Of a stretch of 58,266 bases of DNA, positions 1 through 53,499 are shown piece by piece. This DNA is from a virus. Under the pieces are notes generated by a model, which worked only from the letters and a program-made list of their open reading frames with translations, made no database searches and had not been told where the DNA came from. The stretch spans positions 1-58,266 of IMG/VR virus record IMGVR_UViG_3300043570_003543. The stretch is one strand, 5' to 3'. Positions within the stretch are counted from its first letter, which is position 1; each line of letters starts with the position of its first letter. The position numbers and the translations under genes are program-made.

Positions 1-932
1 ACGTTTACTCGGGTCTGCCAACAACAGCAGTAACCGATAGCCGTCTTGGTTCATTTGGTTCCGTACAGCGTGACCCAATGGTATTGCCACCAACACGTAC
101 AAAGCGTGTTCGTGACTTGTTCCCAGTTCGCAAGACAAACGCTGCTGTTATCGAATACTTCCGTCAGCTTGGTTTCACAACCTTGCAGGCTGGAGCAGGC
201 GTAAACAGTGCATCATCAGTTGCAGAGCGCAACGCCGGCAATACCGCATTCGGTATCAAGCCACAGTCTTCATTCGCCTTCGTTGGTGAGCAGGCTCCAG
301 TGCGCACACTTGCACATTGGGAAGCAGCACACCGCAACGTTCTTGCAGACGAGCCACAGCTTCGAAGCATTATCGACAACGAATTGATGTACGGTCTCCG
401 TCTCCTTGAGGATAACCAAATCCTTAACGGTAACGGTACTGGTGAAAACTTGTTGGGCGTTCGTAACACACCAAACATCCAGACATACAACTGGTCAAGC
501 GGTGCAACTCTGCCAGTGAAGGACACAAAGGCTGACGCGCTTCGCCGTGCGGCAACCCTTTCCTTCCTTGCTTACTACGAGCCAAGCGGCATCGTTCTTC
601 ACCCGAACGACTGGGAAGACATCGAACTTACTAAGGACTCACAAGGCCAGTACCTCATCGCAGTTTCGGTTGCAATGGGTGGCGAGCCACGCGTCTGGCG
701 TATGCCAATCGTTGACACTCCTGCAATGACTGAAGGTAAGGCACTTGTTGGAGCCTTCGGTACCGGAGCACAGTTGTACGACCGTGAAGAAGCAAGCATC
801 CGCATCAGCGAACAGCATTCGGACTTCTTCGTCCGTAACGCAATCGTTATCCTTGCAGAGCAAAGACTTGCGCTTGCTGTCAAGCGTCCAGAAGCATTCG
901 TTGAAGTAACCTTCGACAACGCACCAGCCTAA
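1..932 (+). CDS. HK97-fold major capsid protein, 5'-truncated
   Basis: The open frame runs from base 3 of the window to TAA at 930-932 with no start inside that suits the family, so the gene begins upstream; about 309 residues are visible. The protein shows the usual order of the HK97-type capsid family: a segment with DEPQLRSIID, the E-D-x-x-ILNGNGTGENLLGV stretch, a later LHPNDWEDIELTKD segment, then LVGAFGTGAQLYDRE, the SEQHSDFFVRN motif and a terminal RPEAFVEV. It would form the icosahedral shell. It is followed by a strong terminator, which marks the end of a highly expressed structural transcript. The missing N-terminus could hold a delta domain. Family call is confident; fold variant is not. 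Confidence 0.92.
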   Translation, partial: VYSGLPTTAVTDSRLGSFGSVQRDPMVLPPTRTKRVRDLFPVRKTNAAVIEYFRQLGFTTLQAGAGVNSASSVAERNAGNTAFGIKPQSSFAFVGEQAPVRTLAHWEAAHRNVLADEPQLRSIIDNELMYGLRLLEDNQILNGNGTGENLLGVRNTPNIQTYNWSSGATLPVKDTKADALRRAATLSFLAYYEPSGIVLHPNDWEDIELTKDSQGQYLIAVSVAMGGEPRVWRMPIVDTPAMTEGKALVGAFGTGAQLYDREEASIRISEQHSDFFVRNAIVILAEQRLALAVKRPEAFVEVTFDNAPA

Positions 933-8866: not shown

Positions 8867-9190
8867 GTGAACAATATTGAACGTATAGACAGTATTCCCG
8901 AAGGTGGTAGTTGCACCGGAAAAGACCTCAATATGTGGTTTCCCATGGCGGACAAATCTCAGCCAGGAAAATTCTCAGACAATTATCGCAAAGCAAAAAA
9001 AGATGCTGTGCTCGCGAAGAGCATTTGCAAAGATTGTTCCGTTCGTTTAGAGTGTTTGTCTTACGGCTTGTATCACGAATCTTTTGGTATATGGGGTGGA
9101 GCGTCAGAACGTGAGAGGCATCAAATGAGAAGAAAACTAAACATCATTATGATTCCTAAAGTCCCCGTCAACCTACTCCTGCCTCGGTGA
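8867..9190 (+). CDS. whiB: WhiB-family Fe-S transcription regulator
   Basis: 107 residues from GTG 8867. It has the four-Cys arrangement of WhiB proteins: GSCTG near residue 16, then CKDCSVRLECLSYGL, followed by the turn GIWGG and a basic C-terminal tail (RERHQMRRKL). The 4Fe-4S cluster binds sigma factor region 4 and steers transcription. WhiB is essentially confined to Actinobacteria and their phages, so this is the best single host marker in the window. Phage WhiB such as TM4 gp49 can block host whiB2 function and exclude superinfection. Confidence 0.93.
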   Translation: MNNIERIDSIPEGGSCTGKDLNMWFPMADKSQPGKFSDNYRKAKKDAVLAKSICKDCSVRLECLSYGLYHESFGIWGGASERERHQMRRKLNIIMIPKVPVNLLLPR

Positions 9191-12047: not shown

Positions 12048-15000
12048 ATGTCTTCCGATAATGAATTCCCCATCCCTTTCGAGGAGTCCAGACGCGGTCT
12101 GGCGGCTAACCAAGAGGAAAAAGCGGCCGTAGGGCGACTTGGTCAGTATTTAGCTTCTCGCGGAGTTAATAGACCGACAATCGGCGAAGGGCGCAAAAAA
12201 AGAAGAAGCGGCAATATCGAGCTTCCCACTGGCGGCAAGCCAGGCCAAAGAAACCCTACCGGTTCGAGAAGAGACGTTGACGGCGATGGCTGGGCAGACG
12301 AGGGAACCACCAAGCCAGTATGGGTCGGCACCGAGAGTCAAGCAGGTAAGCCAAATACTGTTGCTCGTCTTTCTAGTGGCATGGTGCAACTTTCACCAAC
12401 AGAGCGGCACGACTATGGCGCTCTTGTGGCGTCAAAAAAAGTTCAAGCGAAAGACGTCAAAGGCAAAGGCGGAGAATACAGAATAGTCATAACGACATCG
12501 GGAACCGTAGCCGCATTTCTTGATTCAGACATTGAGAAAGAAAGAAACAACCTTCTCGACAGATTTAACGAGCTAGGCAAAAATCCTTTTACAAACAAAG
12601 AAGCCCCCCTTGCATTGAAGGACATTGATGACCGGGATGTACTAAGAGGACTGCTCGATGACCAGCGAAAAATTAAACCATCAGCAGGAATGCAGGTCTA
12701 CCTATCCGGCAAAGGCATTGAAGTTTTCGGAATAGAAACAAGAGAAAAACACCGCCGTCGTGGATTAGCAACAGAGATGTTTAACTTTCATCGTGAAGTA
12801 TTTCCCGACCAAGACCTCCAACATAGCGACGCGTTGACTGATGACGGTAGGGCTTTTGCCGACGCGACTCCCACTGTCTCCGTATCGGCAAAACTTTCCT
12901 CTGGCAAAGGACGTAATACAAAGCTAAACGTTACGCGCTATGGAAAAGACGACGAATACGCGCAGGTATCGTCTTTTGAAATTGACGGCAAAGTGTTTGA
13001 GATTTCTCGTGGTGGAGACTCTCCCGGCAGAGACATGTACAACGGTTACATCTCTGCGTTCGACGAGGATAAAAACGTTGCATACATCGACTACAATATG
13101 GATACAGAAAACAAGAAAGCCGTTGTGGCAATGGTTTTCACCGATGAAGAATATCGTCGTCAAGGAATAGCCGAAGCCCTTCTTGATTCTTTTGTGACAG
13201 AAAATCCCGACTACGAGATAAGCCCTGGTGGCACCACCGACGAAGGTGGAGACTGGTGGCGTTCGGTTACTGGTGGGGATGGACCAATAAAAGCAGAAAA
13301 AGCTACACAAACGCAAGAAGGTCTCTTTTCACCACGCAAAGGAGAGCAGGGAGACTCCGGCTCAAGGCTTTCTTCTGGAAAAAAATATCAGGAGATAGTT
13401 GATTCCCAGCCATCGTTAAGCGAAGATAAAAAACAATCGATAGCTAATTTTCTTGATGATATTGTGTCAGAAGAATTTCAAAAAGAAGATATTTATGTGC
13501 TTGATACCGGTCCGACGCCACCAAGGCCTCCCGGAATGCCAGAACCAAAGCCGAGACAAATACTTAAAGACGATGAAAAAAGAACTCTAGAAAAAGAACG
13601 AGTTCGCAACTTGTTAGCCGAAGTATTTAAAGGCGAGATGACCCTAGACAAAGACGTCATCATCACCGCTGACGACGGGACACAATTAAACATAGGAAAA
13701 AAAGTCCTAGTAGAAATAATGCCGCAATCTTCCTATGCGCCAGCGATAAAGGTAAAAAAGGCTTCTGAAAAAGACCTTGCGGAACAGGATGAATTAGGAC
13801 TGTATGAAGAAAATATAAAAGAGGGTGACTTAGTAACAGAACTGCAACTTGAATTCAGGATTAAGCCACTTCCTGAGTACAGCGACGCACTCTTGGCTAT
13901 ATTTAATGATGAAGATGGAAAAAGATACATTTCCAGAGAAGACGGTACACCGGCTCTTGCGACGGGATACAGAACATTCATTCAGGTGTCTGGAGATGAC
14001 AAAGACGTTCGAATTGTCTCTCACGATTCTTTTTACATCAACAATCGTGCCCAAGGTCAAGGAATTGGGTCTGTTTTTAATGCTAGAAATGAAAAATTAT
14101 ACAACGAACTTGATGTTCGTTCCATAATTACTTGGGGTAATTCCGGCAGTGGTTCAACCGGTGCTGTTCATTGGCCAAAAAATGGTTTCTCTTGGGCAGG
14201 AGAGAAAGATAAGCAGGATTTTATAAAATTAATTGATGAGGCAATCGTCAATACTCCAGAAATGTTTTCTGAAGAAGATAGAAAAAAGATATCTTCCCTG
14301 TACAGAAAAAATAACGATACTGGATTGTTTGAGACGGAAGCCACGGCAGAAGAGTTTGTAGATTTTCCTAAAGCAGACGAAGTTTTTTCTAATGCAAATG
14401 CTCAATTCTTCTACTCAAGACCACTAAGAGAGCTGGCTGGGGCTTCTTCTGGAAGTAGCGGTTCAGCAAGGCTTTCCAGTGGTAGAGCTCCTCGATACCC
14501 GCGCGAACCAACGCTGGGTGCTTTCCTTGAAGGAGCGCAAGAAAGATTTGAAGGCGTTGATTCCTGGGAGGAGTTCAAGGAGCGCTATGCCGAAACCGAA
14601 ATGGTATTTCTTGACTACGAAACAACCGGATTAGATTTCGACGAATTCGGTAAAGCAACCACAAACGGTAACCCAACGCAAATTGGTCTTGTAAGAATGA
14701 AGAACGGCAAAGAAATAGGCCGTTTAAATCTTTTCATGAACCCCGAACAGCCTCTTGGTGAATGGTCTTTAGCAAACCTTAAAGATGCAGATGGTAATCC
14801 AATAACCAACGAATGGCTTGCTACGCAAATGCCAATGGCGGAAGCCCATAGACAAGTTGCTGAGTTTATTGGACCAGACGCAATCATTGGTGTACAGAAT
14901 GCAACGTTTGATAAGAGAGTGCTTGAAGATGCGTTAGAAAGAGACGGCATAGATTGGCGTCCTTCTGGCTATCTTGACACAAGAGACATAAGTGCAATGA

Positions 15001-18000
15001 CCTTGCCTGTATGGAGCGAAGAGAGCCCAGAAGGTCCCTATATAACCGATAGAGACGGAAATAAAAAACCATCCAGCAGTCTTGCTGCAATAACCGAATA
15101 TTTGGATGTTGAATTAGGTGAGGGTCACCACAACGCCGATGCCGACGCTTTCGCAACCAGTCAGGTTATGCAGAAGATAATCGATAGAGCCATTGAGAAC
15201 GGATGGTCCACTGACGTCTTGGATAAAGAAAAAAGAGACGCAAAACTAAAAGCAGACAACGATAAATTTAACGCAGATATTGAAAAGTTTGAATCAGACA
15301 AAGAGTCTTTTGTTTCAGCCCAGAAAGAAGAGGAAAGCACAAGGCTTTCTTCTGGAGCTAGAGCCAAAAGAAGCATTCCGCCGATATCTGAAATTAGGAA
15401 AGAAGTAGGGAGATTCTATAGAGAATCAGAAATGTCAGATGCAGATGTTGTTCGTACGTATCTTCAAATTAGAAACCGTGATGCAGAGGAATTATACGAA
15501 TCAAGACATACTAGCGGCAGGGAAATATCCGACGAAATAGGTGAGCATTTCTCAAGGTTTCGAGACTTCATAGATAATGAGAGAATCTCAATAGACGGAA
15601 TGAGCGATAGTGAAATTCTAGAAATCTTAAAAAAAGGAAAATATCGTTCAACAATAGATTCGTACGACAACGCAATAGACAATATTGGACCTGTTCCCTC
15701 AAAGAATTCAAATCGTCTTTCTTCCGGCAGACAGCGCGAATTAATACCAATGAATGCTCCGTCAAAGGAGCGAAAAGGAACTGGTGCTACTGGCTACAGA
15801 ACTCAAGACTCTTCAGGAAATTTGATTAGTAGGTATTCCTCAACGTGGCTTTCCGGTTTGAGTTCTGATGAAATTTCTAAGGTTGTTGTTCCTGTCAATG
15901 CTGATGAGCATTTCGAGATGTGGGCTGACGATATTGCTGGACCAAACTGGCGAGCCAGTAAAAAACAGCAAAAATTCATCAAGAACTACTATGAGGAGCT
16001 ACAAAAAGACTCAACTAATATTCCTGTTGATTATTCTCCAGAATCAATAGCTGCTACCCAGAAATTAGTAAAAGACCTGCTGGATTCTTCCCCTTCTGTT
16101 ATGTGGGTAATGCAAAACTTCGGAGCACCATTGATTGTTCCGTTCACTCGCGAAGGAATGGACGCTTACGAAAACAGTCCAGACATGAAAGAACGACTAG
16201 AGCTTCTTGCCAAGCAACGCGGAACAGAAAAAATCCCATTTGTTAGCGGACTTGCAAATCGTTCCTTGGGGTCTATAGGTATTTCTCCACGAGCCCTGAT
16301 AGATAGAGAATCGTTACTTAATGACGACAAGGGTGTTTACCCAATAAGTTTAGACCCAGACCGGGTTCCGGCACCACGAGATGCTCACATAGATAGGTCC
16401 CTAGAAGGAACACTCGTTCACGAGTTTGGACACTGGATACATCACAGAGCGCTTTGGGATACGGAAACAAACGGCGCTTCAGGAAAAATGCGCTCATATT
16501 ATGGAACTGGAAAGCTTTCTGACCCAAGATACGTAGCTTCGCTTGATGTTGCAGAAGAATACGGTGACTACGAAACTGACGACAAGAGAATAGAAATCTA
16601 TTCGCAGTTCATCGACCTGACTGGAAGAAGCCCTGAAGAAATGTTCAGAGCCCACCCCGATGAGCCTCTCCTATCCACCTCTTACGGAAACATAAACAAA
16701 AGAGAGGCCATGGCAGAAGCCTTTGTTGCAATAATGCATCCAAACAAGGAAATGCCAGAAAAGACCCTGAGCAAGAAACTCAGAAAAGACATTTATACGC
16801 TAATTGGCGTTGACGAAAAAAACCTTCCATGGAGCGATTCTAAAGCTGGCTCGGAAAATCGCCTTTCATCGGGTGCCAAAAAAGACAAACGCAAAACAAT
16901 TTTCTCAAGATTCAGAAAAGAAGAAACTGAAGAAGCAACCGTTGAGGAAAAAAGGAAACCTCCAGTAGTGGAGAGACCTGAAGGCCTGGTTTCGTTCGCT
17001 ACCGAACCGTCAGAAGAATTGCTTAAAGCCTTACCAATACCTGATGAAGACACCTTAAAGAACGAGTTACTAAAAGACGTACAGTCTATAGCGTTGGAAT
17101 TCGACAAAGGAGCCTATGGAAGTATTGACTCGATAGGGATGGGTTCAAGAGCTTCTATTATTGCCAAGAAAGCAATTACCGCAAACCTGTCTCGCTCGGT
17201 AGATTTTGATGTTGAAGATTTTATTAAAGTTTTTTCTGCAGGCAACGACCGTTTCGGTTTTCACAGTACGGAAACTTTTAAAGCAGTACAAAAAATGTAC
17301 GAAACTGTAAAAAACCTACCAGCAGATGCTGCGAGCACGGAAAGAAGAACGGCTGCTAGGGGTGCTTTTGATACAAAAAGCGGACGTATTATTTCGGCAA
17401 AAATACATGACGACATTCTTGGTAGAGCACGATATTACGACGAAATATTAGACAGGCTAGAAAAAGAAAACTTTGACGAACTTTTTGGCTCCTCTTTTGA
17501 TGAATTAATGGCTACAGACGGTAGCGAAAAATCACTTTTTACCCCTTATTTAATGACGAAACTTGGAACTGACGATATTAGAAGAGAGTTTCTAGAAGAG
17601 ATAGAGCCACGGCGTGGACTTTTAAACCGCCTTATCGAAGCAGTTGAACTACAAGAAAGTAAAGCTTTCGGGCTTGCCAGAATAGGGGAAATAAATCCCA
17701 ACACGGGAGAACGCGATTATGAAGTAATTTCATTACTGGGTCGTGGAGTAAACATGGGCGTCATGGATGCAATGTCGTCTCTTGATATTAGTGATGAAGA
17801 TTATGGTCAAAAATTTGCAGATATTATGTCTGAGTTTAAAGGTTGGCTAACGGCAGAAAAACTCATGAAAATACGCGACTCGGGTTTGCTTAAAATAGAT
17901 AGTTCAAACATTGATTCGCCAGAAATTAAAAAAGCACTAAAAGAGCATCTAGTAGCAAACGTACGTTCTAGAGCTGGAAATTTTGAATCAAAGCGGGAAA

Positions 18001-21000
18001 GCTACACAAACAAAACGGGAGTTGTGTTCTTTGATTTAGAGACAACCGAAGGAAAACGACTTGTTCGAGAATCTCTGATTTCCGACCTTATTCATACTTG
18101 GGCAATCTCGGCCAACAACGCAAACCCGGTTGCTCTTGCAGTTCAGCATGAAATAAGAAAGATGTTTGGATTGACCGAAGCCGTGGGTTGGTCAACTTGG
18201 CCGCTTAAAGCTCTTCTCCCGGAAGAAAGGGAGGAAATGTCGGCTCACGAATTTGACGGAGCTCCCGAATTGACGGATGCTCAATCAGCAATGATTAGAC
18301 CGATTCTCCAAAATATATATGATGCTACTCAGCTTTATTACAAAACAAAAGGGGTTACACACGTACCCATATACAGAGGATTTTCTCAGAATAATATAGA
18401 TTTAACCCCGGGAGTTATTTCACCGATAGAAACAACAATGCGGCCACTATCTTCATGGAGCACGAGCTCGGGAGTCGCTTTGGGTTTTAGTAATTCTGGA
18501 GGAGAAGTAGGTGGACCTTTGGAGCCTACACTGCTTAAAGCTTTTGTTCCCGTTGAAGATATATTTTCACACCCATTGAGCGGGTTTGGGTGTCTTTCTG
18601 AAGATGAAGTAGTTGTTATTGGCAAGCCGGTCAAGGCTTTTGCGATTCTCGCGTACGACAGTGAGGAAGCAACACGTGCTAGAAACAGATTAAAAAACGC
18701 ATCGATGTCAGCTATTGCCGGAGAAGGGAGAGCGTCTAAATTAACTACTTCAAATATTGAAGAGCTTATAAAGCCTGGTTCAGATTTGTCATTCATAGAC
18801 GGAAGCGACCTAGACATAGAAGACGCAGACCTACGCAGTGCAGACCTCACTGAAGCAAACTTATCCGGCGCAAGCCTGGTTGGTTCCAACCTGTCTGGCG
18901 CAAACTTAACAAACGCAAAGCTGAATAACGCAAACCTGTCTGACTCAAATCTGATTGGCGCAGACTTGTCTCGTGCAGACTTGCGTGGTGCAAACCTGGG
19001 TGGCGCAGACCTGTCCGGTGCAGACCTGACGGGTGCAAACCTAATAGATGCTGACCTCTCAAATGCAAACCTGGAAGGCGCAAGACTTGAAAACGTAAGA
19101 CTGGGTAGCGTAGACCTGTCTGGTACAAACTTGACTGACGCAGACCTCACTGGTGCAAACGGCCACAATATAAACCTGAGTGGTGCTGACCTGACCAATG
19201 CAAACTTTACTGCTGGATTCCTTATGAATGCAAACTTGACTGATACAAACCTGAGCGGTACAGAATTGAGTTCTGCAAACCTAATGGGTGCGAAGCTGAA
19301 TAAAGCAAACCTGACTGGCGCAAATCTGTCTTCTGCAGACATGGCTGATACAGACCTGACTCGTGCAAACCTAAGTGGTGCAAACCTAAGTGGTGCAGAC
19401 CTAAGAATAGCAAACCTCACTGAGGTGGACTTAACGGGCGCAGACTTGACTGGCGCAGACCTAACCCAAGCAAACCTCACTGGCGCAAACCTTGAAGCGG
19501 CAAACCTGACTGGTGCAAACCTCACTGATGCAATAATGCCCGAGGGATACGTCACGGCCGATAACCAGTCCTCTGAATCGGTCCAAAAACTTTCTTCAGG
19601 CAAGAAATCACACACTCCAGAATGGAAAACAGTTGAAGAGATTGTTGATTTTGAAGTTCTTGGAGCATCTCCTGATGATAGCGAAGAAGACAGAGACGAT
19701 ATAGTCAAAGAGTCTGTTGGTGGAGACTGGATGCAATGGGACCCATGTCGCGAAATAAGAACAGCCGCATACGAACTTGCTGGAATAGACGAGTACTCAG
19801 AACGAGACCCAAATATCACTCAAAGTGGTGGGTTCTTTGGAAACTCAAGATTTGACACAGCTATTTCTCCCGAAAAGAGAACCGAACAAGCCCGCTATCT
19901 TATGGCAAGCATTGTCGATTCTTTAACGAACAAAGCAAGATACGAAAAACAGCCTTATCTATATAGAGCAATGGCGTTTTCGTCTCCAGAAGAAGGAAAA
20001 CAGTTCTTCGACACAATGAAGGTCGGTAATCAGGTAGATATACCGTTACTTGCTTTTGTTGAAATAGGTCCATCTCCTAGTGGGGACCATTTCTTGACAA
20101 GATTCGGCAACGACGCTCTCTTGGTGCTAGAAGACTTCCCTGGGTCATATCAAACGGGCGGAACATTTGAGCCAGTCTTCTCTAGCAGGTATGAAAGCGA
20201 CACTCTTTACAACGTCAATGAATTTGCAGAAGCAATATTGGCTGATATAGAAAACGGAGTCTCTGACGAAGAGAATATTGAGAACGATACCGAGTTTGCT
20301 AACAGGCTTATAAAACTTGTTGATGATTATCAAAAGTCCAGAGACCCGGCAGAGAGACGACAACTAAAAACAGACATAAAAGACACGCTGGATGAAGTGG
20401 GGAATGAAACCATAAAGCTTGAATGGGAAGGTGAGTCACTGCCTGAAGACCACGAAGATTATTACCTCGCTATGGAAGACGAGGAAACAGGAATGACTCC
20501 ACGTGAATACGTTTCTGGAGGAAGACTTGAAGTTGTTAGCGTAAATCCAGACCCAACAAAGACTTACAAAGAAATAATCACGCTTCGCCAAGTTGGTGCT
20601 TTTGACCCACAAGAAAAGGGTGCTCTAGTTCTCAAAACCGACGGAGAAAACAGCACGAGATTATCCTCTGGCAAAAATCCTTCAAAGAAAGCAAAGCCAA
20701 AGAGCGTTCAGCTTCACGATGACGAATTTGAGAAAAAGTTTAATCAAAAAGTCCCCGATGGAGAGGGTGACTGCTTTAGTGAAGCAATACAGCAGGCTAG
20801 AAAACTGGCCGATGCCTACGAAAATGTAAAAATAGTACATGGCTATCCTCTTGGTACCGGAGGAGAAGCAGAAGGGCTCAGATTCCCACATGCATGGACA
20901 GAGTTCGAGAGAGACGGTCTGGTGTGGGTACGGGATTACTCAAACGGCAACAGAGTAGAGTTTCCACAGATTCTCTACTATGGCATTGGAAATATTGAAG

Positions 21001-21077
21001 AAGCAGACGTAAGTAGATACGACATTAAGGAAGCAGAAGCAAACATGATAGAAAACGAACACTATGGCCCTTGGTAA
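12048..21077 (+). CDS. Giant multidomain polyprotein with nine [RK]LSSG junctions
   Basis: 3009 residues. The pentapeptide [RK]LSSG occurs at residues 107, 282, 440, 808, 1099, 1223, 1605, 2514 and 2871, each in a polar linker between domains. Blocks: 1-106 basic leader with an EF-hand-like DVDGDGWADE; 112-281, 287-439 and 445-807 GNAT-like, with RRRGLA at 236, RRQG at 370 and RAQGQGIG at 667; 813-1098 DEDDh exonuclease (FLDYETTGLD, D856/E858; H1028/D1033); 1104-1222 unknown; 1228-1604 zincin (HEFGH at 1458, E1553/E1557); 1610-2513 unknown region, then ADP-ribosyltransferase (R2110, STS 2138, E2185-D-E2187) and pentapeptide repeats 2250-2498; 2519-2870 ART-like remnant; 2876-3009 Cys-His-Asp peptidase-like fold (C2909, H2948, D2963). 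No signal peptide. Probably virion-borne effectors, cut at the motif (inference). Confidence 0.88.
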   Translation: MSSDNEFPIPFEESRRGLAANQEEKAAVGRLGQYLASRGVNRPTIGEGRKKRRSGNIELPTGGKPGQRNPTGSRRDVDGDGWADEGTTKPVWVGTESQAGKPNTVARLSSGMVQLSPTERHDYGALVASKKVQAKDVKGKGGEYRIVITTSGTVAAFLDSDIEKERNNLLDRFNELGKNPFTNKEAPLALKDIDDRDVLRGLLDDQRKIKPSAGMQVYLSGKGIEVFGIETREKHRRRGLATEMFNFHREVFPDQDLQHSDALTDDGRAFADATPTVSVSAKLSSGKGRNTKLNVTRYGKDDEYAQVSSFEIDGKVFEISRGGDSPGRDMYNGYISAFDEDKNVAYIDYNMDTENKKAVVAMVFTDEEYRRQGIAEALLDSFVTENPDYEISPGGTTDEGGDWWRSVTGGDGPIKAEKATQTQEGLFSPRKGEQGDSGSRLSSGKKYQEIVDSQPSLSEDKKQSIANFLDDIVSEEFQKEDIYVLDTGPTPPRPPGMPEPKPRQILKDDEKRTLEKERVRNLLAEVFKGEMTLDKDVIITADDGTQLNIGKKVLVEIMPQSSYAPAIKVKKASEKDLAEQDELGLYEENIKEGDLVTELQLEFRIKPLPEYSDALLAIFNDEDGKRYISREDGTPALATGYRTFIQVSGDDKDVRIVSHDSFYINNRAQGQGIGSVFNARNEKLYNELDVRSIITWGNSGSGSTGAVHWPKNGFSWAGEKDKQDFIKLIDEAIVNTPEMFSEEDRKKISSLYRKNNDTGLFETEATAEEFVDFPKADEVFSNANAQFFYSRPLRELAGASSGSSGSARLSSGRAPRYPREPTLGAFLEGAQERFEGVDSWEEFKERYAETEMVFLDYETTGLDFDEFGKATTNGNPTQIGLVRMKNGKEIGRLNLFMNPEQPLGEWSLANLKDADGNPITNEWLATQMPMAEAHRQVAEFIGPDAIIGVQNATFDKRVLEDALERDGIDWRPSGYLDTRDISAMTLPVWSEESPEGPYITDRDGNKKPSSSLAAITEYLDVELGEGHHNADADAFATSQVMQKIIDRAIENGWSTDVLDKEKRDAKLKADNDKFNADIEKFESDKESFVSAQKEEESTRLSSGARAKRSIPPISEIRKEVGRFYRESEMSDADVVRTYLQIRNRDAEELYESRHTSGREISDEIGEHFSRFRDFIDNERISIDGMSDSEILEILKKGKYRSTIDSYDNAIDNIGPVPSKNSNRLSSGRQRELIPMNAPSKERKGTGATGYRTQDSSGNLISRYSSTWLSGLSSDEISKVVVPVNADEHFEMWADDIAGPNWRASKKQQKFIKNYYEELQKDSTNIPVDYSPESIAATQKLVKDLLDSSPSVMWVMQNFGAPLIVPFTREGMDAYENSPDMKERLELLAKQRGTEKIPFVSGLANRSLGSIGISPRALIDRESLLNDDKGVYPISLDPDRVPAPRDAHIDRSLEGTLVHEFGHWIHHRALWDTETNGASGKMRSYYGTGKLSDPRYVASLDVAEEYGDYETDDKRIEIYSQFIDLTGRSPEEMFRAHPDEPLLSTSYGNINKREAMAEAFVAIMHPNKEMPEKTLSKKLRKDIYTLIGVDEKNLPWSDSKAGSENRLSSGAKKDKRKTIFSRFRKEETEEATVEEKRKPPVVERPEGLVSFATEPSEELLKALPIPDEDTLKNELLKDVQSIALEFDKGAYGSIDSIGMGSRASIIAKKAITANLSRSVDFDVEDFIKVFSAGNDRFGFHSTETFKAVQKMYETVKNLPADAASTERRTAARGAFDTKSGRIISAKIHDDILGRARYYDEILDRLEKENFDELFGSSFDELMATDGSEKSLFTPYLMTKLGTDDIRREFLEEIEPRRGLLNRLIEAVELQESKAFGLARIGEINPNTGERDYEVISLLGRGVNMGVMDAMSSLDISDEDYGQKFADIMSEFKGWLTAEKLMKIRDSGLLKIDSSNIDSPEIKKALKEHLVANVRSRAGNFESKRESYTNKTGVVFFDLETTEGKRLVRESLISDLIHTWAISANNANPVALAVQHEIRKMFGLTEAVGWSTWPLKALLPEEREEMSAHEFDGAPELTDAQSAMIRPILQNIYDATQLYYKTKGVTHVPIYRGFSQNNIDLTPGVISPIETTMRPLSSWSTSSGVALGFSNSGGEVGGPLEPTLLKAFVPVEDIFSHPLSGFGCLSEDEVVVIGKPVKAFAILAYDSEEATRARNRLKNASMSAIAGEGRASKLTTSNIEELIKPGSDLSFIDGSDLDIEDADLRSADLTEANLSGASLVGSNLSGANLTNAKLNNANLSDSNLIGADLSRADLRGANLGGADLSGADLTGANLIDADLSNANLEGARLENVRLGSVDLSGTNLTDADLTGANGHNINLSGADLTNANFTAGFLMNANLTDTNLSGTELSSANLMGAKLNKANLTGANLSSADMADTDLTRANLSGANLSGADLRIANLTEVDLTGADLTGADLTQANLTGANLEAANLTGANLTDAIMPEGYVTADNQSSESVQKLSSGKKSHTPEWKTVEEIVDFEVLGASPDDSEEDRDDIVKESVGGDWMQWDPCREIRTAAYELAGIDEYSERDPNITQSGGFFGNSRFDTAISPEKRTEQARYLMASIVDSLTNKARYEKQPYLYRAMAFSSPEEGKQFFDTMKVGNQVDIPLLAFVEIGPSPSGDHFLTRFGNDALLVLEDFPGSYQTGGTFEPVFSSRYESDTLYNVNEFAEAILADIENGVSDEENIENDTEFANRLIKLVDDYQKSRDPAERRQLKTDIKDTLDEVGNETIKLEWEGESLPEDHEDYYLAMEDEETGMTPREYVSGGRLEVVSVNPDPTKTYKEIITLRQVGAFDPQEKGALVLKTDGENSTRLSSGKNPSKKAKPKSVQLHDDEFEKKFNQKVPDGEGDCFSEAIQQARKLADAYENVKIVHGYPLGTGGEAEGLRFPHAWTEFERDGLVWVRDYSNGNRVEFPQILYYGIGNIEEADVSRYDIKEAEANMIENEHYGPW
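18795..19541 (+). repeat. Pentapeptide-repeat array inside the giant ORF
   Basis: About 50 tandem A(D/N)LxG-type pentapeptides (residues about 2250-2498), each 15 bases, for example SGADLTGANL. They should fold as a right-handed quadrilateral beta-helix. In the pentapeptide-repeat family such rods mimic DNA (Qnr, MfpA) or act as rigid spacers. Here the array lies directly behind the ART domain, before the eighth LSSG junction. Confidence 0.95.
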
Positions 21078-26361: not shown

Positions 26362-27419
26362 TGAAGGGTTTAATTTTATCTGGCGGCTCTGGAACGAGAC
26401 TTAGGCCAATAACACACACGAGCGCAAAACAGTTAGTCCCCATTGCCAATAAGCCGATACTTTTTTACGGCATAGAAGACATGGTTAATGCTGGAATAAC
26501 CGACATTGCAATCATTGTTGGCTCTACGGCGAACGAAGTAATTGAGGCCGTTGGGGACGGTTCGGCTTTTGGTGCAAAAATAACTTACATAACTCAGGGC
26601 GCTCCGCTTGGCTTGGCTCATTGCGTATACATCGCTTCAGATTTTCTAGGTGAAGATAATTTCGTCATGTATCTAGGAGATAACATGATTGAGTCCAGTC
26701 TTACCTCTTTTGTACTTGACGGTATGGCCGGTTTCGACGCAAAACTTCTTCTGAAAGAAGTCGAAGACGCTAGCCAGTTCGGAGTTGCTGAAATAGGTGA
26801 TGACGGCCGAATAAAAACATTGGTAGAAAAACCAGCCAACCCAAAATCCAATTTGGCGCTAGTTGGTGTTTACATGTTTTCAAAAGAAATACATCAAAGC
26901 ATCAAAAGAATAAAAGCTTCACCGCGAGGCGAACTTGAAATAACGGACGCGATACAAAACTTAATAGATTCTGGCAGCAGAGTGGCTTACGAGATACTCG
27001 ATGGCTGGTGGATTGATACTGGCAAAAAAGACCCTCTTCTTGAGTGCAATAGGCTCGTTCTTGACGCTATCGAACGAGACATATACGACAACCCTCTTAA
27101 CTCTTTTACGGCAGACGGAAAAGTAAAAATAGGAAAGTCTCAGATATACAATTCCAGAATTATTGGGCCGGTATCTATAGCGGATAATGTAATAATTTCC
27201 GATTCGTATATCGGACCATACACATCCATAGGCCCTGACTGCGTTGTGAGAAATTCAGAAATTCAAAACTCCGTTCTTCTTAAAGGAAGCACAGTCACAG
27301 ATATTGCAAGAATGAGCGACTCTCTAGTAGGACGTTCGGCTATTGTAAAACAATCAGAACAAAAACCGTCAGCACTGAAACTGATGATAAGTGACTACAG
27401 CGTAGTAGAGGTAGAGTAA
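26361..27419 (+). CDS. rmlA: Glucose-1-phosphate thymidylyltransferase, long StrD/RmlA type
   Basis: 352 residues. It makes dTDP-glucose from dTTP and glucose-1-phosphate. The nucleotide site LILSGGSGTRLRPIT, KQLVPIANKPIL, the catalytic YLGDNM and EKPANPKSN, and WWIDTGKKDPLLE are all present. After residue 240 a left-handed beta-helix tail (SRIIGPVSIADNVII, SYIGPYTSIGPDC) gives the length of actinobacterial long-form enzymes such as StrD rather than the roughly 290-residue RmlA. First gene of a four-gene operon and overlapping rmlC by one base. Confidence 0.95.
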   Translation: MKGLILSGGSGTRLRPITHTSAKQLVPIANKPILFYGIEDMVNAGITDIAIIVGSTANEVIEAVGDGSAFGAKITYITQGAPLGLAHCVYIASDFLGEDNFVMYLGDNMIESSLTSFVLDGMAGFDAKLLLKEVEDASQFGVAEIGDDGRIKTLVEKPANPKSNLALVGVYMFSKEIHQSIKRIKASPRGELEITDAIQNLIDSGSRVAYEILDGWWIDTGKKDPLLECNRLVLDAIERDIYDNPLNSFTADGKVKIGKSQIYNSRIIGPVSIADNVIISDSYIGPYTSIGPDCVVRNSEIQNSVLLKGSTVTDIARMSDSLVGRSAIVKQSEQKPSALKLMISDYSVVEVE

Positions 27420-27985
27420 TGCCAAAATTTGAAGAGTGTACGGAAATAAAAGACGTATTAATAGTTCATCCCGACAAGCACGGAGACGAGCGTGGGTACT
27501 TCGTAGAGACATACAGGAGAAACTGGTTCCCTCTGGGTCGAGAAATGGTTCAAGGCAACAGGGGAGACAGAAAAGCTGGCTGCCTAGTAGGTCTTCATTA
27601 TCATTTACATCAAGCAGATTATTGGTACGTACCCTTTGGTGCGTGTTTGGTTATTCTTCACGACATTAGAGAAGGTTCCCCCACTTACGGCAATACCTAC
27701 ACGACACGGCTTGGAATGGTGGACGAGAACACCCACGACCACCGCGGCCTATTCATTCCGCCCGGCGTGGCACATGGGTTTTACTCAGTAACAGACATGA
27801 CTATCACCTATATGGTTGATAACTACTACAACAAAAACGACGAGTTGGGAATACTCTGGAACGACCCAGGCATACATATCGCCGATGCTATTGAAAATCC
27901 CACCGTTTCCGATAGGGATAAAAACAATCCGCTGATATTAGACATCCCGGCCGGGCTAAAACCAATTTACGACTCAAGGACATAA
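27419..27985 (+). CDS. rmlC: dTDP-4-dehydrorhamnose 3,5-epimerase (RmlC-like)
   Basis: 188 residues, standard cupin length. It epimerises C3 and C5 of dTDP-4-keto-6-deoxyglucose. Visible features: DERGYFVETYRRNWFP, GLHYHLHQADYWYVPFG with the His ligands, RGLFIPPGVAHGFYSV, and YMVDNYYNKNDE. The active-site His-Asp pair is in place. Third step of the rhamnose pathway. Two bases separate it from rmlB. Confidence 0.92.
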   Translation: MPKFEECTEIKDVLIVHPDKHGDERGYFVETYRRNWFPLGREMVQGNRGDRKAGCLVGLHYHLHQADYWYVPFGACLVILHDIREGSPTYGNTYTTRLGMVDENTHDHRGLFIPPGVAHGFYSVTDMTITYMVDNYYNKNDELGILWNDPGIHIADAIENPTVSDRDKNNPLILDIPAGLKPIYDSRT

Positions 27986-27986
27986 C

Positions 27987-28946
27987 GTGAAGCACTTTGT
28001 AACCGGTGGAGCTGGGTTTATAGGCTCCAACTATGTTCGCTACGTACTAAACAATACAGACGACGAAGTAACAGTTTACGACATGCTGACTTACGCAGGA
28101 TTATTGACGACGATGAGCGACTTCATAGATTCTCCACGTGTCCACTTTGCGTACGGAGACGTTTGCGACAAAGAATCTCTCCTTGCAGCCATGAAGGGGG
28201 CTGACTACGTAGTCCATTTTGCTGCAGAGACCCATGTTGATAGGTCAATACTTCTTTCCGATGATTTCGTACGTACCAACTGCACTGGAACCGATTCCGT
28301 AATGAACATAGCGCAACATATAGGCGTAAAAAAGGTTGTACACATCGGAACTGACGAGGTTTACGGCTCCGTTGAGACTGGTTCGTCTTTAGAGACCGAC
28401 CCACTAGAACCACGTTCCCCTTACTCGGCATCCAAGGCGGGCTCAGACCTAATAGCGCTGTCTCACTTCCACACACACGGCCTACCGGTCTCGGTTACTA
28501 GGTGTACGAACAATTTCGGGCCATATCAGTTTCCAGAAAAAGCAATACCGCTATTTGTCACAAACATATTTCAAAACAAAAAAATACCTCTATATGGAGA
28601 CGGTCTCAACGAAAGAGACTGGATTGACGTTCTTGACCACTGCGCTGCTGTACACAAAGTTCTTACACATGGTGAAAGTGGACAAATTTATAACATAGGC
28701 GCTGGCAACGGTACGTCAAATATAGACCTCGTAGGAATGATTCTTCGATACTTTGAGCAAGACCCCGCCGAGTGGATTGAGCGCGTTCAGGACAGAAAAG
28801 GACACGACAGACGTTATTCAGTAGACGTAAGTAAAATTACAAATCTTGGCTGGAAGCCTCTCCACAATATCGAAGACTCTCTTAGCTACACGATTGACTG
28901 GTATCGGTCTAATCGTTGGTGGTGGGAACCCCTCAAGGATGCATAA
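27987..28946 (+). CDS. rmlB: dTDP-glucose 4,6-dehydratase
   Basis: 319 residues from GTG 27987. Extended SDR family: NAD site VTGGAGFIGSNYVRYVL, AAETHVDRSI, DEVYGSVETGSS, catalytic YSASKAGSDLIALS, and TRCTNNFGPYQFPEKAIPLF. It converts dTDP-glucose to dTDP-4-keto-6-deoxyglucose. Complete and of the usual length. It overlaps rmlD by 8 bases. Confidence 0.95.
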   Translation: MKHFVTGGAGFIGSNYVRYVLNNTDDEVTVYDMLTYAGLLTTMSDFIDSPRVHFAYGDVCDKESLLAAMKGADYVVHFAAETHVDRSILLSDDFVRTNCTGTDSVMNIAQHIGVKKVVHIGTDEVYGSVETGSSLETDPLEPRSPYSASKAGSDLIALSHFHTHGLPVSVTRCTNNFGPYQFPEKAIPLFVTNIFQNKKIPLYGDGLNERDWIDVLDHCAAVHKVLTHGESGQIYNIGAGNGTSNIDLVGMILRYFEQDPAEWIERVQDRKGHDRRYSVDVSKITNLGWKPLHNIEDSLSYTIDWYRSNRWWWEPLKDA

Positions 28947-52485: not shown

Positions 52486-53232
52486 ATGCCTAACTGGTGT
52501 TACAACTACATGACCATCAAAGGAACAAAAAGAGAACTCGCCAAGTTCGTCAACGACATCACAGTTGCCGATGTCAAGGTTGAGGGAGACAAATCACGAG
52601 TTGTCGTTGAGTACGACCTGAACCAACTCGTACCACTTGACCCTCGGGCGTCAAAGGAAGTCAAAACCACCACCCCTGACGGAGTAGAAAAAGTATTTAC
52701 TGCGTTCAGTACCGAAAGTGACGGATTTGATGGATACTTAGACGCTGTTGCAACATGGGGTAGTAAATGGGGCGCATGCAATGTAGAGATAGACGACCCA
52801 ACCTCTAAGGAGAAAAACCTTTCCATGCGTTACGAATCTGCGTGGAGTCCATGTGATGGTCTAATTTGCAAGATTTCTGCCATGTACCCACAACTAATGT
52901 TCGGAGTTGTTTCCACAGAGGAATCCAGCGCCTTTGTTGCGTGGTCTTTCTTTCATAATGGAGAGGTCATTGAGGAAGGTGGGCGTGACCCCCAGATGCT
53001 CACGCCTGAACTTGACGAAAAATGCAAAAAAGCAAACGACCCTGAAAATCCCAACTTGTCCGAGGACGAGGAAGATTGGTACGAATCGTTTAGTGAATGG
53101 GAACATCACTTAGTGGAACTCTGTGATGACGAACTTGTAACTGTCATGACCGAATACCCAAAACATCTCGCATACATCAAACGGTGCGAAAAGAAAGGAA
53201 AAATGCCACAGCCGTTTATTTCATCAGTCTAA
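52486..53232 (+). CDS. Api92/YubB ferredoxin-like-fold protein
   Basis: 248 residues; GAAAGAGGAAGAG before ATG. The N-terminus MPNWCYNYMTIKGTKREL is the hallmark of the Api92/DUF1281-YubB group found on phages and plasmids. Then LNQLVPLDPRA, WGSKWGACNVEIDDPTSKE and a Trp-rich SAFVAWSFFHNGEVIEEGGR follow, as in that family. Function unknown. A GAGTAGATAA box follows the stop. Confidence 0.88.
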   Translation: MPNWCYNYMTIKGTKRELAKFVNDITVADVKVEGDKSRVVVEYDLNQLVPLDPRASKEVKTTTPDGVEKVFTAFSTESDGFDGYLDAVATWGSKWGACNVEIDDPTSKEKNLSMRYESAWSPCDGLICKISAMYPQLMFGVVSTEESSAFVAWSFFHNGEVIEEGGRDPQMLTPELDEKCKKANDPENPNLSEDEEDWYESFSEWEHHLVELCDDELVTVMTEYPKHLAYIKRCEKKGKMPQPFISSV

Positions 53233-53271
53233 ATAAGAGTAGATAACTACACAAAAGAAAAGAGAACCCAA

Positions 53272-53499
53272 ATGGGAACTACAAAAAACACACAATCCAT
53301 GGAAAACATTTCAGAATCAGTACGAACATACAGAACCAAGATGGGCTGGTCACAATTAGAACTTGCTAATCGTGCAGGCTTGGACAGAAAAACTGTAAAT
53401 CGTGTTGAGAACGGACGCTATGCACCAAGCGTTGAGACCCTACTTCTTGTAGGGGACGCACTTGGAGTGTCCATGAACAGTCTCCTAGGAAACAAATAG
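53272..53499 (+). CDS. Xre-family HTH regulator (Cro/CI-like)
   Basis: 75 residues. Residues 15-70 are a textbook HTH_3: VRTYRTKMGWSQLELANRAG, LDRKTVNRVENGRYAPSV, ETLLLVGDALGVSMNSLL. DNA-binding domain only, no oligomerisation or cleavage domain, so Cro-like. A GAGTAGATAA box lies 25 bases before the ATG. It is the best candidate in this half for a protein that reads the dispersed boxes, but that is inference. Confidence 0.9.
   Translation: MGTTKNTQSMENISESVRTYRTKMGWSQLELANRAGLDRKTVNRVENGRYAPSVETLLLVGDALGVSMNSLLGNK

Follow-up and report, generated by a model that had tools for sequence, protein, structure and literature searches.

The stretch of viral DNA analysed here, called the window throughout (58,266 nucleotides, IMG/VR record IMGVR_UViG_3300043570_003543), begins inside a capsid gene and carries, about 11 kb downstream of that gene and beyond ribonucleotide reductase and primase/helicase genes, a single open frame with an ATG start that encodes a protein of 3009 residues, giant protein H (P0001). 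The pentapeptide [RK]LSSG occurs nine times in H, exactly at the residues given in a preliminary description made from the letters alone, and a six-frame translation of the window holds no copy outside these nine. The nine copies, all exact matches to the motif, lie between ten modules.

78..932 (+): HK97-type major capsid protein, C-terminal part; the window begins inside the gene
8867..9190 (+): WhiB-family regulator (PF02467 at G001:64926-65147, which is window 8906-9127 by the overlap offset)
12048..21077 (+): giant protein H, ten modules with nine [RK]LSSG between them
12048..12365 (+): module 1, N-terminal leader, residues 1-106 (comparison with protein B of relatives)
12366..12380 (+): junction 1, RLSSG, residue 107
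12366..12890 (+): module 2, GNAT-like, residues 107-281 (motif by eye)
12891..12905 (+): junction 2, KLSSG, residue 282
12891..13364 (+): module 3, GNAT acetyltransferase, residues 282-439 (PF00583, E 1.9e-10)
13365..13379 (+): junction 3, RLSSG, residue 440
13365..14468 (+): module 4, possibly GNAT-like by eye, residues 440-807 (no Pfam match)
14469..14483 (+): junction 4, RLSSG, residue 808
14469..15341 (+): module 5, DnaQ-type 3'-5' exonuclease, residues 808-1098 (PF00929, E 4e-8; phrog_192, E 1.2e-22)
15342..15356 (+): junction 5, RLSSG, residue 1099
15342..15713 (+): module 6, residues 1099-1222 (no match in Pfam or among the other modules compared)
15714..15728 (+): junction 6, RLSSG, residue 1223
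15714..16859 (+): module 7, zincin-like, with HEFGHWIHH, residues 1223-1604 (weak MPTase-PolyVal match and conservation)
16860..16874 (+): junction 7, RLSSG, residue 1605
16860..19586 (+): module 8, ADP-ribosyltransferase-like region followed by pentapeptide repeats, residues 1605-2513 (PF00805, E 2.1e-65)
19587..19601 (+): junction 8, KLSSG, residue 2514
19587..20657 (+): module 9, residues 2514-2870 (no Pfam match; a relative precedes the exonuclease in L194/L195)
20658..20672 (+): junction 9, RLSSG, residue 2871
20658..21074 (+): module 10, candidate Cys-His-Asp (papain/transglutaminase-like) domain, residues 2871-3009 (by eye)

The junction peptide in protein H

Chance or a compositional artefact is a practically negligible explanation for the junctions: 20,000 composition-preserving shuffles of H gave a mean of 0.016 copies and a maximum of 2 where 9 are observed, and the motif is kept across contigs. 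The 45 bases of DNA on either side of the junctions are 0.275 and 0.28 identical, compared with 0.259 for random positions. With identity this near to background the copies are not recent DNA repeats, as the preliminary description had held, and we rejected a DNA repeat or recombination site as their source. Its statement that the codons vary from copy to copy is right for eight of nine codings, while residues 440 and 1099 use an identical one. It had also given S, N, T or A before the motif and K, R or A after it, within a short polar linker. That is the usual pattern, but the preceding residues are, in order, A, A, S, A, T, N, N, Q and T and the following ones M, K, K, R, A, R, A, K and K, so Q and M also occur, and the polar enrichment is mild (mean polar fraction 0.71 at the junctions vs 0.63 overall). 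In an AlphaFold2 model of residues 801-1640, which is of moderate quality (mean pLDDT 56, with 376 of 840 residues below 50), all four junctions lie in stretches with pLDDT below 50, which weakly supports their place at domain borders. A second model, of residues 1810-3009, was built from a four-row alignment and has a mean pLDDT of 44; it is informative in the pentapeptide repeats of module 8 only, where the repeat fold is confident.

Pfam GNAT matches to module 2 have E of about 0.1, under the cut-off. The exonuclease assignment of module 5 agrees with a Foldseek search, in which a DNA polymerase came first (E 9.9e-4) and Pol III epsilon second (E 2e-3). Module 7 matches MPTase-PolyVal across its HExxH, but with E 0.019 and 15.5 bits against a cut-off of 27.5, so we call it zincin-like only. 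The H, E and H of this motif are invariant in 7/7 aligned rows, the window included. A PDB sequence search with module 7 gave no match up to E 1, and a fold search with the 801-1640 model found the exonuclease, with no zincin among the 50 of 96 rows listed. The N-terminal region of module 8 is probably ADP-ribosyltransferase-like, judging by the R, STS and ExE motifs read by eye; there is no Pfam ART match in this module, and no significant Pfam match in module 10. On contig G008, the match to the zincin module (82417-83406) is interrupted by two stop codons, which suggests that the H gene of this phage is broken or split, and a separate open frame of 131 residues (53051-53380) matches module 10 with 49% identity.

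Phage, gene neighbourhood and host

The window overlaps contig G001 over 3980 bases with zero mismatches, and upstream of the window G001 carries genes for the large terminase subunit, portal and tail sheath and two further giant genes. The genes for the giant proteins B and D sit between the portal and capsid genes. All contigs are metagenomic and the gene calls are mechanical. A WhiB gene is present in 12/12 contigs tested, and among control genomes only Corynebacterium glutamicum matched. The nearest cultured portals, 38-44% identical over about half of the portal, are those of the actinophages Brevibacterium phage Cantare, Gordonia phage GMA6 and Streptomyces phage Gilgamesh, with which the group shares an actinophage head layout. 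Because of the WhiB genes, the hosts of the phage group are most likely Actinobacteria. GMA6 has an annotated ART, and Gilgamesh encodes a 4624-residue protein between its portal and capsid genes; none of the 16 structural-region proteins examined from the three cultured phages carries [RK][LMI][SATG][SATG]G. Further along the window, at 27419-28946, PHROG matches to dTDP-4-dehydrorhamnose 3,5-epimerase and a nucleotide-sugar epimerase mark a possible sugar-modification cluster.

The motif in other giant proteins

Protein B has 2916 residues and begins with a Peptidase_S78 domain (44.1 bits, Pfam cut-off 21), followed, in a domain scan that covered its first 2265 residues, by ArdcN, MPTase-PolyVal (133.3 bits, E 6.4e-39, above the Pfam cut-off) and UvrD. 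The WGH and EWSIGY sequences of the S78 domain, which we take to surround the catalytic His and Ser, are invariant in four B proteins. Protein D has 2389 residues from its start codon and an HEHAH motif found by eye.

Counts of [RK]LSSG were made for G001 (joined to the window) and for G003, G004 and G007, and gave 17, 14, 14 and 14 copies, 59 in total, which are not independent since the four phages are mutually related. Expected numbers are 0.15 (G001 with the window), 0.20 (G004), 0.18 (G007) and 0.08 (G003), and each of five scrambled controls gave zero copies. Every one of the 59 copies in called genes belongs to B, D, H or the tape measure, and all are in called proteins of more than 1200 residues, a class that makes up 26% of all residues. 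With flanks, the consensus is roughly S-S-x-[RK]LSSG-[KRA]. Reading the motif as a processing site of H alone was thus too narrow, although its conservation and its place at module borders (below) bear that reading out. The tape measure copy that lies in a linker has V or A in place of R/K in G004 and G007. KLSSG at residue 35 of the tape measure was considered as a junction and is doubtful, as it does not switch in G016.

The motif is also conserved in loci related to B. The B-relative searches kept the best 80 loci each and confirmed at least 514 of 600 listed stretches in one case and 341 of 343 in the other; S78 is present in every relative by construction, as they were found that way. Of the best 80 loci, 65 carry one or more [RK]LSSG within a frame of at least 300 residues, and some of these loci are 48% identical. 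The 15 loci without it comprise six that have no 900-residue frame and nine that do. With a marine query, the best 80 loci included 19 frames below 1000 residues and 22 of 1000-1199 residues, and 21 of these 22 have neither LSSG nor LASG and hold 0-4 copies of G[LF][SARP]S; in these shorter B relatives (1000-1199 residues) a clear repeated motif is therefore absent or unproven. A scan of genome contigs with two peptide patterns confirmed one relative, on a contig binned in a Phycisphaerae MAG and without LSSG. Locus L199 (JASLZV010000001.1) is a marine B relative with an adjacent portal gene and a GL.S.R repeat, assigned to a Phycisphaerae bin and possibly a mis-binned phage contig.

The leader of H resembles part of B: residues 16-53 (window:12093-12206) align with approximately residues 546-584 of B from relatives (L026/L039). 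Module 1 matches B of G007 and G004 at E 3e-4 and 1e-3, and the leader modules of G004 and G007 themselves match B with E down to 6e-6; H module 1 had no match at E 1e-3 to B of its own phage. This common stretch is a candidate virion-targeting signal. In both proteins it is followed by an Asp/Asn/Gly-rich segment, with DVDGDG in H and DANLNG in B.

Exchange of modules at the junctions

When the chains are cut at the motif, many modules match end to end and are reordered or replaced. Because that comparison had itself cut at the motif, we repeated it with uncut H proteins. There, homology ends lie a median of 12 residues from the nearest.[LF][SA]SG compared with 97 for random points, and 61% of them fall within 20 residues of it compared with 12%. 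This test used ten uncut chains (two partial), whose pairs are not independent, and 455 ends from 260 alignments of at least 80 columns, each end lying more than 15 residues from a terminus. The proposal that the junctions mark domain borders is upheld by this result. The counterpart of module 4, for example, changes position, coming directly after the leader in G004 and G007 and after the exonuclease in G011 (none was matched in G003), and the order in L194/L195 is module 9, exonuclease, a new module, module 10. These alignments establish, at the level of protein sequence, that modules have been exchanged at the junction peptide in this actinophage group. In protein D of G003 (residues 1451-2542), and in L045 and its neighbours, parts of a D module have two matches inside a single stretch that contains no junction, which suggests an internal duplication.

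Dialects of the junction peptide

In other lineages the junction peptide takes the forms [SA]LSSG, [KR]FSSG, GLAS or GF[SA]S, each found across several giant proteins of a phage. Of the nine long B frames that lack [RK]LSSG, seven use [SA]LSSG (L092, L093, L097 and L099-L102). In their contigs G016 and G017 position 1 of.L[SA]SG is nowhere R/K but S, A, T or G, plus one V per B; this covers B and D of both phages, H of G017 and the tape measure of G016, in which H was looked for and not found. Of the other two frames, L079 has [KR]F[SA]SG three times and L081 once, and D in the contig of L079 has RFSSG twice and SFSSG once. G037 and G032 are more distant relatives. In both, B, D, the tape measure and further large proteins carry the peptide, as GLAS in G037 and as GF[SA]S, in places GL[AS]S, in G032. 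The enrichment of these two forms is weaker (32 vs 7.0 expected and 28 vs 6.1 expected, with 6 and 7 in the reversed control), and for both phages the analysis covers motif sharing. Their giants of 3112 and 3212 residues showed no match when compared with H and are outside the module comparison. Further relatives have GLRS, and marine contigs GL.S[RH]. G037 also encodes, at 102412-106083, a protein of 1224 residues rich in short TG-containing repeats, a candidate collagen-like fibre.

Position 1 is loose in G028 (K, G, S and A in B; A, E, S, T and H in H) and is not strict even in the [RK] phages, where T, S, A, V, M, I and G also occur. R/K at position 1, with which the preliminary description defined the motif, is the form used in the phage of the window; since related lineages use [SA]LSSG, GLAS or GF[SA]S, it is not essential to the junction system.

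A tree of S78 domains was built from 42 rows, to which 103 usable ones had been reduced at 95% identity. The motif types can be placed on it with 9 changes, compared with a mean of 21 when labels are shuffled, and part of this clustering comes from linkage, because motif and S78 share one gene. A pure [SA] clade of four, with support of 99/96, lies inside an otherwise mainly [RK] group; 7/42 rows fit no motif type, and two [SA]-typed rows are mixed and stand beside [RK] rows.

Across the genomes compared, then, the peptide type is common to several giant proteins of one phage and different between lineages. Joint change in separate proteins of one genome is what would be expected if a single reader changed its specificity, and the dialects thus point to one reader acting in trans, most simply a protease. 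It is chiefly this shared change that favours a protease site over a passive linker. An uncut spacer, a linker for module exchange or a tag bound by a packaging factor, copied with each moving module, would suit the swapping of modules at the peptide; a mere spacer would have no reason to keep LSSG or to vary in step across the proteins of one phage, and the near-background DNA flanks argue against recombination sites at the DNA level as the cause. A binding tag whose partner co-evolved with it may still account for the dialects, but we consider this family of explanations as a whole quite unlikely. That the junction peptide is the cleavage site of some protease is, in our judgement, probable. 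The protease could in principle be the host's, as dialects could follow host lineages. Dialects differ, though, among WhiB-carrying phages (12/12 contigs tested, the [RK], relaxed, GLAS and GF[SA]S types being among them) and cluster on the tree of the phages' own S78, and while both points leave room for host differences within Actinobacteria, we consider a host protease very improbable.

Candidate proteases

The leading candidate for the junction protease is the S78 prohead protease domain of B, a tentative assignment to which we give slightly less than even odds. It is coded near the capsid gene and stands at the N terminus of a protein that itself bears junctions, and in phage SPN3US a single prohead protease processes several head proteins at a common motif (PMC10052503). 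At the boundary of the capsid delta region and N-arm, L[ST]S is present in 9/9 LSSG-type phages and at that place in 0/8 others, in a comparison from whose alignment the G030 fragment dropped out. The residue before it is S, Q or H in [RK] and [SA] phages alike, with no switch, and the restriction of L[ST]S to LSSG phages may reflect one inherited change. We considered the capsid site as proof of S78 and rejected it, since position 1 ignores the dialect, keeping it as weak support. The tape measure is a tail protein with copies of the motif, and so a poor fit to a reader that acts only inside the prohead.

The zincins in B, D and H are the second candidates. They, or the candidate papain-like module 10, might cut the junctions, perhaps after injection. 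B has the strong MPTase-PolyVal match, H the conserved HExxH module and D the HEHAH read by eye; a processing role has been proposed for the MPTases of polyvalent proteins (PMC5512222, in the text available); cutting of the tape measure would not require a prohead; and the capsid site stayed as it was when the dialect changed. Against this, three different zincins would have to read one dialect and switch together, where one reader is simpler, and the H zincin matches its family only below the cut-off. We consider cutting by these enzymes unlikely.

Relation to known systems

T4 and phiKZ, like SPN3US, mature head proteins with a prohead protease; that of SPN3US is of the gp21 type, and the one here is of the S78 class. 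One phage protease, several head proteins and one short motif are common to SPN3US (PMC10052503) and the phages described here, for which the scheme is predicted from sequence. Of the 14 cuts mapped in SPN3US, 13 take off an N-terminal propeptide and the last is a C-terminal cut in the protease itself; in the present phages each chain would yield between two and a dozen modules.

The general kind is already published as the polyvalent proteins of phages and conjugative elements (Iyer et al. 2017, PMC5512222). As there described, in the text available, many unrelated effector domains share a chain, ArdC-N, MPTase, GNAT and ART among them; delivery with DNA and release by a protease are predicted; domains are mosaic; and MPTases embedded in the chain are named as processing agents. 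Polyvalent proteins are recognized by at least two unrelated domains, and H has GNAT, DnaQ exonuclease and pentapeptide repeats, and B has S78, ArdcN, MPTase-PolyVal and UvrD; B and D also have the expected position, between portal and capsid genes, which H has more loosely. The uniform junction peptide, the lineage dialects that run through several precursors and the prohead-protease fusion set the present proteins apart from those in the accessible part of PMC5512222. As far as searches of open-licence papers reach, these three features are the new part: we found no report of them there, of RLSSG with phage, or of 'phage polyprotein' with cleavage. The statement in the preliminary description that it knew of no described phage effector polyprotein with this junction should be read with caution, as polyvalent proteins with predicted protease release are already on record (PMC5512222). 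As a whole its reading is partly supported, right in kind and too narrow in scope.

A polyprotein in the strict sense yields several mature products by proteolysis at defined sites, as is predicted here, and has uniform sites at module borders across the precursors of one virus, as the LSSG phages do. The polyproteins of eukaryotic RNA viruses, an analogy drawn in the available text of PMC5512222, likewise combine repeated sites, an embedded peptidase and ordered modules; unlike them, the proteins here show no homology to such polyproteins and are several precursors of a DNA phage.

A proposed model for the giant modular proteins

Taken as a whole, the best explanation is that these are giant modular proteins with a lineage-specific cut site whose modules would be delivered by the virion, a reading to which we give a probability of about 0.7. 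B, D and H would be made as single chains and enter the prohead, perhaps through the N-terminal element of H that is resembled in B. One phage-encoded protease working in trans would recognize and cut the junction peptide during head maturation. Acetyltransferase, exonuclease, metallopeptidase, ADP-ribosyltransferase-like, ArdC, UvrD helicase and other modules would then enter the next host with the DNA; we think it somewhat probable that what is released are effectors carried in the virion. Whether the phages hold a DNA-phage counterpart of the RNA-virus polyprotein, in which one protease, fused to one of its precursors and with a private dialect, frees dozens of effector modules, and perhaps the mature tape measure as well, from between three and five giant precursors, we regard as an even bet.

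The suggestion that polyvalent proteins may be processed thereby becomes a system open to testing, in which the sites, the precursors and the candidate enzymes are specified. For annotators, the motif is a pattern by which giant proteins of aquatic phages can be split into modules. The dialects are a natural experiment in the co-evolution of a protease and its substrates: if the model is true, site dialect and protease would co-evolve, channelling module exchange within each lineage.
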